Below are positions 1,102 to 4,502 of a DNA stretch of 64,000 bases, piece after piece. Positions within the stretch are counted from its first letter, which is position 1; every line of letters begins with the position of its first letter. The translations under genes were made by a program, and so were the position numbers. Origin of the DNA: Nitrospirales bacterium (GTDB lineage: Bacteria; Nitrospirota; Nitrospiria; Nitrospirales; UBA8639); the NCBI GenBank assembly GCA_031315865.1, contig JALDRJ010000002.1, positions 1,400,001 to 1,464,000 on the forward strand, in the 5' to 3' direction. The notes under the pieces are model-generated. The model saw only the letters and a program-made list of their open reading frames with translations, ran no database searches and was not told the origin of the DNA.

Positions 1102-2079
1102 TTAAGAGCCGATCTGCTCAATAATGGCTGCCGCTAATAAGGGCAACATGATTTCATGATGTCCGATGAGCGTATAGCCTCGTCCGCCTTTTTGAGTCGG
1201 ACGCTTCACGACATTGGTCGCCGGACGGTAATGGTGAAGAAAGTCCATGTTTACCGTCGTGATGTTTTTTAGCGCACGGCCCAGGTTACGGCTCAACGTG
1301 ACGGTTTTGAGAAAAACCTCCGGAAGCATCACCGCTGATCCAAGGTTGAGGTACACTCCGCCTTCCATGCGGGAGACCGTAGACGCGAGCAAGCGAAAGT
1401 CGATCAGCGAACTTCCTCCGATGGCAGCTCCATCCGCGGAAGGATGCATATGAATGATGTCCGCGCCCATCGCCACATGCACGGTGACCGGGATTCCGAC
1501 TTGCACGCCAGTGGCGAGGAGGCTCATTCGACGATGCGGAAAAAGTTTGGGATGTCTGGTGATATATCGTCCCACGCTTTCCCCGATACCCTGTTTGGCT
1601 TCCCAGCCTTCACAAATCGCTTTGTTGAGTATTTTCCCTGTTTCTTCTGCCATTCCAAACCGACCGGAGTCAATTTCGGTGTCGACTTCTTCCGACGTGT
1701 GTCCCAGGTAAGCCAGCTCGAAGTCATGGATGATCACGGCCCCGTTCACGGCGATGGCGGTGATGATCTGTCGTTGGATCAGGTCGATCAGGATCGGGTT
1801 CAGCCCCACTTTGGTGGGGTGCCCTCCCATTCCGAATATGACCGGTTTCCCGCGTTCGCGTGCCCGGATAATGGCGCGGACCACCGCACGTAGCGATTGA
1901 ACCGCTAAAAAATCCGGAAGAGAATCAAGAAAACTCCGGAAGTTCTTGCCTCGTTTCCACGATACCGCAAAATCTGAAATGTTGACCTTGCTGTGGCGCG
2001 AAGAAAGGGGATACGTCCGAACGTGTGAGAGGTTCAGTGGTTGAACGGTCGAACGGGGGGTGTGACGGTGTTTACGCAA
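1102..2079 (-). CDS. Conserved protein of unknown function, deoxyhypusine-synthase-like
   Basis: A 325-residue protein starting at TTG 2079, which overlaps the gmhA stop by 8 bases (TTGCGTAA) and has GAAGAG seven bases upstream; the longer open frame reaching 2334 runs inside gmhA and is unlikely. Visible segments include GKPVIFGMGGHPTKVG, an NGAVIIHDFELAYLG stretch, HTSEEVDTEIDSGRFGMAEE, and a C-terminal HHEIMLPLLAAAIIEQ. The glycine-rich and HDFELA/TSEE pattern recalls, distantly, NAD-binding deoxyhypusine-synthase-like proteins, but I cannot place it with confidence. The translational overlap with gmhA suggests co-translation and a role near heptose or other sugar-phosphate metabolism, as inference only. 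Confidence 0.7.
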   Translation of the reverse strand: MRKHRHTPRSTVQPLNLSHVRTYPLSSRHSKVNISDFAVSWKRGKNFRSFLDSLPDFLAVQSLRAVVRAIIRARERGKPVIFGMGGHPTKVGLNPILIDLIQRQIITAIAVNGAVIIHDFELAYLGHTSEEVDTEIDSGRFGMAEETGKILNKAICEGWEAKQGIGESVGRYITRHPKLFPHRRMSLLATGVQVGIPVTVHVAMGADIIHMHPSADGAAIGGSSLIDFRLLASTVSRMEGGVYLNLGSAVMLPEVFLKTVTLSRNLGRALKNITTVNMDFLHHYRPATNVVKRPTQKGGRGYTLIGHHEIMLPLLAAAIIEQIGS

Positions 2080-2644
2080 ACAGTCGCTCTTCGATGATTT
2101 CACAGAGCACGTGTCCGAGTGTGATGTGACATTCTTGAATTCGAGCTGTGACCGTCGACGGAACTTGAAAGCTGTAGTCCACAAGATCCATGAGTTGGCC
2201 TCCCGTTTGTCCTGTCCAGCCGACCGTGACGAGTCCTCGTTCCCGGGCCGTTTGAACCCCCTTGAGGACGTTTGGAGAATTGCCACTTGTACTGATCGCG
2301 ATGGCGATATCCCCTTTTCGCCCCAGTGCTTCAACTTGTCGAGAAAAAATATCCGAATAGTCGTAGTCGTTTGCGATGCAGGTCAGGGCAGCAGAATCAG
2401 TCGTGAGGGCTATGGCCGGCAGGGCAGTGCGGTCACGTCTGTAGCGCCCGATAAATTCTGCAGCGATGTGGGAGGCATCAGTAGCACTGCCCCCGTTCCC
2501 GAATAACAGAACTTTATGGGTATCATTGAATGCGCGAATCAGGACTTGGGCGACCTCGATGATTTGTTCGGCGTAGATTTCAGCGAATTGACGTTTAATG
2601 CTGGCGCTCGCTTCAAACGCGTCGATGACCCACTGTTTCTCCAT
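2072..2644 (-). CDS. gmhA: Phosphoheptose isomerase (sedoheptulose 7-phosphate isomerase)
   Basis: 190 residues, the usual GmhA length. It converts sedoheptulose 7-phosphate to D-glycero-heptose 7-phosphate, the first step of ADP-heptose synthesis for the LPS core, in the cytoplasm. SIS-domain signatures are clear: LLFGNGGSATDASHIAAEF near residue 47, ALTTDSAALTCIANDY near residue 80, and IAISTSGNSPNVLKG near residue 115. The ATG at 2644 follows an A-rich leader and fits the family N-terminus. The downstream gene starts inside its stop. No other heptose gene (hldE, gmhB) is in the window. Confidence 0.95.
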   Translation of the reverse strand: MEKQWVIDAFEASASIKRQFAEIYAEQIIEVAQVLIRAFNDTHKVLLFGNGGSATDASHIAAEFIGRYRRDRTALPAIALTTDSAALTCIANDYDYSDIFSRQVEALGRKGDIAIAISTSGNSPNVLKGVQTARERGLVTVGWTGQTGGQLMDLVDYSFQVPSTVTARIQECHITLGHVLCEIIEERLFA

Positions 2645-2834: not shown

Positions 2835-4097
2835 GTGAGTGTTGATGGGCCGGTGAAAGCCCTCCTTATCGCGATGGCGCAGAACTCTGCGCCTACGGTT
2901 TCTTCCCTGCAGCGCCTGTCCCCGGAGCGTTTGTGCTTTTTTCTTCCCGAATCCAGCATCAGCTTGATTGAGACCGAGGTTCAGCCTCACCTGTCGAAAA
3001 TGCCCCAGAAGTGGGATTGGATCATCACCCCGAATCCAGAAAGTTTCGCAGACTCCCACCGGACATTGACCGAATCCTTACCAAAAATGTTGAAAGCCTG
3101 GAATGTGTCGCCAGGTGAACTCATCATCGATATTACGATGGCAACCCCGGCTATGGCTGGTGCCATGATTCTGGCGGGTTTTCCCTTTACCGCTAAAGTC
3201 ATGAGGCTCGAGCCGACCTATCTTGAAAAACTCTCAGGTCCCGATGTTGAAATGGTGGGAGAAACTCCTGGAGTTTGGAGTCAGAGTAATCCGTGGGATG
3301 AGGAAGCCCTCGCCATCCGTCAAGAAGCAGCGGGATATTTTAACCAGGGTTCATATCGTGTGGCTGGGCGGCTATTTCACCGGTTGGAAATGCGGGTGAG
3401 CGGGAGCTTCAAGCCTCTGTATCGAGCGTACGTCGATATCTCGGACGGGTATCACCACTGGCACGTGTTTCACTACCGGCAAGCATGGGAAAAATTGAAG
3501 AACGGGGTTAAGGCACTCGACTTGGCCGCGGCCTGGGGCGGTCCGCCAGGGACGAATGCCTTCGTGAAGTCTGTCAAAGAAAACCTCCGCTTTCTAGAGC
3601 AGATTGTCTTGGATCCCTCTGAGGTGAAAACAAAACTGGTTCATGATTTGTTGGCCCAGTCCAAGCGCCAGATTGACCAGCGTCAGGATGTGGAAGTCGG
3701 GGCTCGTCTTCTCCTTCGTGCGATGTCGGCATGTGCGCAGGGCCGTTTATTTCATACTCATCGGATCAAGAGCTGGGATGTGAGTCTTAATGACGTTCCG
3801 CAATCTGTTCAGGAACAGGTCCGGCAGCGATATGTGAGTGAAGTAGACGGAAAGTATCAGCTTCCGATGCTCGCTCAATTCCATGTGTTGCAAGCATTGG
3901 AAGATCCTATCGGAAGTGCTTTCGAGAAGCACTGGCCTCAAATGAAATCGCTTATCGATGCCACGGATCACGCCGTGTTAGGCAATGGGTTCGAGCCCAT
4001 CAAGGTTGAGCGCTGGCGCCAATTCTATGAGGTAGCTTTAAAGGTAATAGACGTTGAAGAACGGGACCTTCCACAATTTCCCTCTCTATTGTTCTGA
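2835..4097 (+). CDS. CARF-domain protein, TIGR02710-like (CRISPR-associated family), no CRISPR nearby
   Basis: 420 residues if started at GTG 2835; GTG 2853 (giving MKALLIAMAQ) fits the domain edge better, and neither has a good ribosome site. The N-terminus looks like a CARF (Rossmann-like, cyclic-oligoadenylate sensing) domain: strand KALLIAMAQ, then SPERLCFFLPE, then ELIIDITMATPAMAGAM at about residue 95, in the place of the family's D/N-x-TGGTK-M loop. The middle (AAGYFNQGSYRVAGRLFHRLE and a GYHHWHVFHYRQAWEKL segment) matches the helical part of TIGR02710 proteins as I remember them. R304-LFHT-H309 forms an R-x4-H string that could be a HEPN RNase motif or chance. It is followed 24 bases later by ybgC. 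A stand-alone ring-nucleotide-responsive nuclease or regulator is an inference. Confidence 0.68.
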   Translation: MSVDGPVKALLIAMAQNSAPTVSSLQRLSPERLCFFLPESSISLIETEVQPHLSKMPQKWDWIITPNPESFADSHRTLTESLPKMLKAWNVSPGELIIDITMATPAMAGAMILAGFPFTAKVMRLEPTYLEKLSGPDVEMVGETPGVWSQSNPWDEEALAIRQEAAGYFNQGSYRVAGRLFHRLEMRVSGSFKPLYRAYVDISDGYHHWHVFHYRQAWEKLKNGVKALDLAAAWGGPPGTNAFVKSVKENLRFLEQIVLDPSEVKTKLVHDLLAQSKRQIDQRQDVEVGARLLLRAMSACAQGRLFHTHRIKSWDVSLNDVPQSVQEQVRQRYVSEVDGKYQLPMLAQFHVLQALEDPIGSAFEKHWPQMKSLIDATDHAVLGNGFEPIKVERWRQFYEVALKVIDVEERDLPQFPSLLF

Positions 4098-4121: not shown

Positions 4122-4502
4122 ATGAATATTCGAATTTATTACGAAGACACTGATTGTGGTGGAGTGGTCTATTATGCCAATTATCTCAAGTATTTTGAGC
4201 GGGCACGGACCAACTACCTGGAAGAACGAGGTCTGTCCGTTTCGGAATTGAAGAAGCAGGGAACGGAATTCCGGGTCACGCATGCAGAAGTTCACTATAA
4301 ATCCGCAGCGGTCTATGGCGATGAACTTGATATTCAGACGGCTCTTGTCATCAATCGTCGTATCTCCTTGATCTTTTCTCATGTGATTCGCGAGACTCAT
4401 TCTCGTCGCATCGTGGTTGAAGGATCGGCGACATTAGTCGGCGTTGATACACAAGGAAAAGTGAAGCGCCTGAATCCCGCCTTGCTTCAGGAGTTATCTT
4501 AA
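4122..4502 (+). CDS. ybgC: YbgC/FadM-type acyl-CoA thioesterase (hotdog fold)
   Basis: 126 residues. Hydrolyses short or medium acyl-CoA thioesters; in many bacteria the gene sits with tol-pal, but not here. The 4-hydroxybenzoyl-CoA-thioesterase-type motif IYYEDTDCGGVVYYANYL lies at residues 5-22, with D11 as the expected catalytic aspartate, followed by YFERARTNYL. The rest, including HYKSAAVYGDELDI and a GSATLVGVDTQGKVKRL end, is typical. It starts at ATG 4122, 24 bases after the CARF gene, so it may be co-transcribed with it; the Shine-Dalgarno is weak. Confidence 0.9.
   Translation: MNIRIYYEDTDCGGVVYYANYLKYFERARTNYLEERGLSVSELKKQGTEFRVTHAEVHYKSAAVYGDELDIQTALVINRRISLIFSHVIRETHSRRIVVEGSATLVGVDTQGKVKRLNPALLQELS

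Follow-up and report, generated by a model that had tools for sequence, protein, structure and literature searches.

CARF-HEPN proteins are usually annotated as CRISPR effectors or defence RNases. The closest solved structure to the protein described here is Csm6 of Thermus thermophilus (TtCsm6; PDB 5FSH, 8JBC), and the two share the CARF-6H-HEPN order and fold. In TtCsm6, the loop that joins helices 18 and 19 holds the catalytic R-X4-6-H motif, and alanine at R415, N416, H422 or the nearby E332 in each case nearly abolishes the RNase activity (PMC4748810). A positive residue after strand 4 of the CARF domain was tied to nucleotide binding by Makarova and colleagues (PMC4012209), and CARF families lacking it were suggested to bind other ligands (PMC4012209). 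The proteins of the NCBI model TIGR02710, such as those of Synechocystis PCC 7339, Rubrobacter and a Thermus brockianus plasmid, can be aligned with our protein over the full length. They are located among cas10, cmr, csm, cas6 or cas1/cas2 genes and still have H-G at the end of the HEPN motif, whereas our gene has a chromosomal housekeeping setting and its motif is degenerate. The plasmid copies are such CRISPR-linked proteins, with about 23% identity. Outside CRISPR, RtcR is a CARF protein as well, but its architecture is CARF-AAA+-HTH. MtlR is a precedent for a non-catalytic HEPN function, although we know of no CARF domain in it; we claim no membership in either group by sequence.

The analysed stretch of 64,000 nucleotides (the window) contains an open reading frame for 420 residues with a GTG start, and the starts of aligned orthologues agree with it. 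The gene and its domains are as follows.

2835..4097, forward strand: gene of a CARF-6H-HEPN (Csm6-like) protein (ORF call, profile matches, orthologue starts, AlphaFold2 model)
2850..3287, forward strand: CARF domain, about residues 6-151 (TIGR02710, AlphaFold2 model, Foldseek)
3318..3596, forward strand: Csm6 6H helical domain, residues 162-254 (PF22205)
3630..4046, forward strand: Csm6-type HEPN domain, catalytically degenerate, residues 266-404 (PF09670)

TIGR02710, which is named for a CRISPR-associated CARF protein, matched from residue 21 with 94 bits (cut-off 83.9). The Csm6_6H model PF22205 (47.5 bits, cut-off 27.6) and the Csm6 HEPN model PF09670 (39.2 bits, cut-off 27) matched as well. 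The PADLOC model PDLC01812 (CARF1--CARF_HEPN) covered the full length with 523 bits (E 1e-157), which places our protein in the same family by score, and the same model gave 787 bits on a Nitrospira copy. The first-pass annotation had proposed a CARF domain and a resemblance to TIGR02710-type proteins, and these matches bear it out. The structure prediction agrees. In the AlphaFold2 model, built from 40 orthologues (mean pLDDT 83, pTM 0.68), strands and helices of the CARF region alternate in a Rossmann-like manner. Foldseek found TtCsm6 as the best solved structure (E 3.6e-12, probability 1.0) and paired the CARF region with the CARF domains of Csm6 and Cam1. The whole-chain TM-scores were modest (about 0.43-0.55), so the match between the domain arrangements of the model and TtCsm6 is only rough. 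Since the sequence of the protein gave only chance-level matches to solved structures (E 0.9), the comparison with solved Csm6 was made through motif-intact relatives and the fold search. Judging from the profiles and the predicted model, the product is a Csm6-type CARF-6H-HEPN protein.

We inspected the HEPN active site in an alignment of 67 Nitrospirales rows and 16 outside relatives (4 of the sister clade and 12 paralogues). The C-terminal motif R-N-x-S-x-L-A-H-G is present in all 16 outside relatives. Motif-intact relatives align with the R-N-x6-H motif of TtCsm6; in one of them, aligned to solved Csm6, the motif falls on R-N-S-A-L-L-V-H-G. The motif loop of TtCsm6 corresponds to residues 377-384 of the window protein. 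Two features of this site are degenerate.

3963..3986, forward strand: degenerate HEPN motif T377-D-H-A-V-L-G-N384, canonically R-N-x-S-x-L-A-H (alignment)
3726..3728, forward strand: S298, replacing the conserved HEPN Glu (family alignment)

The equivalents of R415, N416 and H422 are T377, D378 and N384. S298 is taken as the equivalent of E332 from the conserved Glu of the family alignment rather than from a structure overlay. The features of an active RNase, R-X4-6-H with the Asn and a nearby Glu, are thus missing from the window protein. The HEPN Arg is found in none of the 67 orthologues, 65 of which have Ala there, 1 Thr and 1 Val. Of the 67, 51 retain the His, which is N, Q, Y, G or A in the clade of the window protein, and the Glu is lost in its genus and in a few single rows. 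Because Arg, Asn, His and the nearby Glu are all substituted, a functional HEPN RNase is not expected of the window protein, and by homology to the TtCsm6 mutants its HEPN RNase activity has likely been lost. The orthologues that keep the His may have an altered active site, which hardly applies to the window protein without this residue. A new catalytic site elsewhere in the protein is possible.

The first-pass annotation had suggested another string as the HEPN motif.

3744..3761, forward strand: R304-x4-H309, the earlier HEPN candidate, not conserved (family alignment)

The string exists, but it is located in a helix other than that of the catalytic motif of the family, and the TtCsm6 motif loop does not align with it. 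Position 304 is Q in 37, R in 24, H in 5 and E in 1 of the 67 orthologues, and position 309 is Y in 39, H in 24 and F in 4. Both R304 and H309 are found in 14 orthologues, the window protein and 13 others. We rejected the string as the active site. An RNase that remains active through R304-H309 or through other conserved HEPN residues (R295, Q302, K371 and R393) could draw on these 14 proteins and on the invariance of R295 and Q302 in the whole superfamily set. We regard it as improbable, given the variability of the string and the loss of the true motif at residues 377-384.

The CARF domain has changed as well.

3129..3155, forward strand: degenerate CARF strand-4 loop D99-I-T-M-A-T-P-A-M107, canonically D-Y-T-G-G-T-K-x-M (alignment)
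3012..3020, forward strand: W60-D61-W62, newly fixed in Nitrospirales and absent from motif-intact relatives (alignment)

As the earlier reading of the loop had it, T-M-A-T-P-A-M stands in the window protein at the place of T-G-G-T-K-x-M in relatives. The Lys of the loop, equivalent to K137 of TtCsm6, is Pro105, so that K137 is substituted along with E332, R415, N416 and H422. This Lys is present in 16 of 16 outside relatives against 0 of 67 Nitrospirales rows. Every aligned outside relative has T-x-G-T-K in the strand-4 loop, and the Nitrospirales orthologues mostly have [TS]-x-A-[TS]-P-A-M. The general CARF ligand motif (D/N)-X-(S/T)-X3-(R/K), in this family D-x-T-G-G-T-K, is therefore missing from the window protein. 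Most Nitrospirales orthologues have likewise lost the Gly in the loop that follows strand 1. The family signature has thus disappeared from both loops that contact the nucleotide, and binding of cyclic oligoadenylate has probably been lost. D99 is invariant across the Nitrospirales orthologues, and positions 101 and 104 are mostly Thr or Ser. Most members retain Asp99 and both Thr/Ser positions, so the domain may still bind some ligand. Nineteen positions are fixed to at least 95% in the order yet differ in the sister clade and in nearly all paralogues, among them W60-D61-W62, A103, A108, E185, W234, K312, W314, Q348, A377 and G383. In the alignment, this pattern of newly fixed positions looks like remodelling, not decay.

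The gene was described earlier as stand-alone, and this description holds: the 64-kb window has no direct-repeat array, and no Cas10, Cas1, mCpol or SMODS match was found in the genome (98% complete). TtCsm6 differs in this respect, as our search for Cas10 and Cas1 found no type III CRISPR system in the genome of the window protein. The 60 relatives include 46 carriers, of which 4 have a strong Cas10 match (G008, G009, G020 and G024), and the gene has a conserved synteny of the housekeeping kind. By comparison, a strong Cas10 is encoded elsewhere in the genome of 4 of the 5 sister-clade carriers (Fisher p 0.0013, uncorrected for shared ancestry). An mCpol was found in 1 of the 60 relatives, at a Cas10-type ORF. 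The window protein is therefore neither an accessory with a Cas10 system linked or in the genome nor part of an mCpol-CARF/HEPN module, and none of the searched synthase families (Cas10, mCpol, SMODS) is general in the order. In three members of one genus (G012, G021 and G027 of g9), weak partial matches to the Cas10 palm were seen in ORFs of about 525 residues, which could be GGDEF-type or Cas10-like proteins.

These results bear on the main rival reading, a live sensor of a different, possibly cyclic, nucleotide with a changed CARF pocket, whose helical domains signal to a partner and which has no RNase activity. The proposal of a cyclic-nucleotide sensor decoupled from CRISPR had been made in the first-pass annotation; its independence from CRISPR and the altered loop stand, but both CARF loop signatures are lost and no synthase is general. 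The CARF fold is kept in the AlphaFold2 model and the Foldseek comparison, the Asp and Thr/Ser positions persist, the newly fixed W60-D61-W62, A103 and A108 point to a remodelled pocket over a decayed one, and RtcR offers a precedent for a CARF sensor outside CRISPR. On the other hand, the Lys is gone from every row and the Gly-rich strand-1 loop from most. Moreover, a core sensor needs a core synthase, which the searched families do not supply, and this counts against the sensor. We consider it unlikely, though a serious candidate.

Another rival is a CRISPR effector that acts in trans with a remote or foreign type III system. The few carriers with Cas10 and the frequent Cas10 in the motif-intact sister clade would fit such a role. 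However, the genome of the window protein has neither Cas10 nor Cas1, and the orthologues of the Cas10-bearing G008, G009 and G020 show the same losses in alignment and tree (the G024 copy was not aligned). G008 and G009 also hold a separate TIGR02710 paralogue with intact motifs, which in G008 adjoins cas1. A role in trans is thus highly improbable.

A CRISPR locus was seen beside the gene in one relative of the same family, G020 of genus g4. This type II-like locus (L116:9401-15530) starts some 0.6 kb downstream from the CARF gene and has a Cas9-like protein of 1130 residues, Cas1, Cas2 and 22 perfect 36-base repeats. L117:1-8201 of G017 matches it in array and gene order. The association looks coincidental, since there are no repeats at the same place in G014 (L118).

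An orthologue with 32-34% identity and both motifs intact is found in the sister clade, which is family f20 within the same phylum. In G097, the gene is located between a NAD kinase gene and the genes of Rho, PrfA and an EPSP-synthase-family (MurA-like) protein, indicating that it is stand-alone in this genome too; G083 has it in another non-CRISPR context. At the f20 loci L107, L108, L109 and L110, the TGGTK-type loop and R-N-x-S-x-L-A-H-G are kept although the surroundings are housekeeping genes (for the L108 gene, 4977-6224, those of NAD kinase, Rho and PrfA) and no cas genes, and the L109 protein is without a stretch inside the HEPN region. In addition to its core copy, the Nitrospiraceae genome G282 has two more TIGR02710-type paralogues (L111 and L112), which are distant and have intact motifs. 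When the motif columns were left out of the tree building, the 39 Nitrospirales rows grouped as a single clade (100/100) on a stem of length 0.84, and f20 was its sister; long branches meet at the root, so the deep part should be read with care. The losses of Arg, Lys and His each map as one change. On this tree, Arg and Lys were each lost once, along the stem of Nitrospirales.

The gene is widespread in the order. In a phylum sample it is present in 96 of 99 Nitrospirales genomes, with 18 of 19 in the family of the window genome (f1), 78 of 79 in the family whose loci are named Nitrospira (f3) and 0 of 1 in f2. The named carrier loci are those of Nitrospira and of Nitrospirales MAGs, and this sample yielded no convincing match from other families of the class. 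Among relatives sampled separately, it occurs in 2 of 8 f2 genomes and in 0 of 4 f4 genomes, so that the word core is true of f1 and f3, not of the whole order. The protein had no match among 50,697 phage records searched for a phage origin. The median dN/dS is 0.095 (212 pairs with dS < 1.5), and by this estimate the gene is under purifying selection. About 90 columns are invariant among 40 orthologues with identities to the window protein down to 44%, and the ORF is intact in nearly all carriers. A decaying remnant without function, which the missing catalytic motifs in both domains might suggest, is refuted already at the level of selection; with the intact ORFs, the invariant columns and the near-universal retention also against it, its probability is negligible. 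In one Nitrospira MAG (L041:565-1738, and G041:C113), the gene is divided between two frames, and residues about 83-112 have no match between them; this is either a true break or an assembly error.

The neighbours named in the first-pass annotation (gmhA/SIS, a YbgC-type thioesterase, Fur and a di-haem peroxidase) were confirmed by profile matches, and three genes flank the CARF gene in conserved or close arrangement.

1102..2334, reverse strand: deoxyhypusine-synthase-like protein (weak PF01916 match; conserved synteny)
2072..2644, reverse strand: GmhA-like SIS-domain protein, divergent neighbour (PF13580; conserved synteny)
4122..4502, forward strand: YbgC-like thioesterase, co-directional, 24 bases downstream of the CARF gene

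The true start of the deoxyhypusine-synthase-like ORF probably makes it shorter. Among 38 loci with enough flank, this gene is divergent upstream in 33 and the GmhA-like gene in 32. The YbgC-like gene is co-directional less than 1 kb downstream in 30 of 45 loci, which include 4 sister-clade loci, and is a possible operon partner. The neighbouring genes by themselves do not name a pathway.

Taken together, we think it likely that a Csm6 homologue has been domesticated here, is catalytically dead and is kept as a housekeeping gene, probably as a dimer that does not cleave RNA but binds it or has a regulatory role. What the sequences show in this reading is the identity, the losses of the motifs, the tree, the spread, the synteny and the selection. 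An active CARF-HEPN effector of the CRISPR type, similar to Csm6, would first have been fixed in the chromosome. In the ancestor of Nitrospirales, or at least of its two main families, the HEPN Arg and the CARF Lys would have been lost within one stem interval, and the gene would then have been retained under purifying selection as a chromosomal housekeeping gene. The His would have been lost later in the clade of the window protein and the nearby Glu in its genus. The Csm6 dimer architecture has most likely been kept, and the window protein presumably dimerises, with neither HEPN cleavage of RNA nor a response to CRISPR cyclic oligoadenylate. The old substrate cleft or the remodelled CARF surface may have a regulatory function by binding RNA or else a protein partner. 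We prefer an RNA-binding regulator because HEPN domains without the motif, for example MtlR and Swt1, have been proposed as non-catalytic RNA binders (PMC3710099); for the window protein, RNA binding is perhaps the case, and we put it forward tentatively. A broader proposal, held with a little less than even confidence, is that a type III effector was exapted in the Nitrospirales ancestor into a non-enzymatic housekeeping regulator of RNA or of a new nucleotide ligand, which may couple to the thioesterase and sugar-phosphate isomerase genes.

The family is already known as a cluster through the PADLOC and NCBI TIGR02710 models. Our literature search found no paper with TIGR02710 in its text and none describing the Nitrospira family; the main CARF classification was outside its scope, and prior notice there is possible. 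In the literature searched, the loss of both sites together, the single origin of this loss and the near-core status of the gene appear to be unreported.

Nitrospirales include the nitrite-oxidising Nitrospira, nitrifiers of global importance. The PDLC01812 name implies a CARF-HEPN defence RNase, but the catalytic losses and near-core status of the family argue against it, and in this near-universal clade of two nitrifier families the annotation as CRISPR effector or defence RNase looks wrong. The results suggest an ancient recruitment of an immune effector to another job. The CRISPR-linked paralogues, the intact stand-alone sister clade with Cas10 and the degenerate core gene form a natural series, which makes the recruitment testable. 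If this is true, the scaffold of an immune RNase would have been turned into a core cellular gene.
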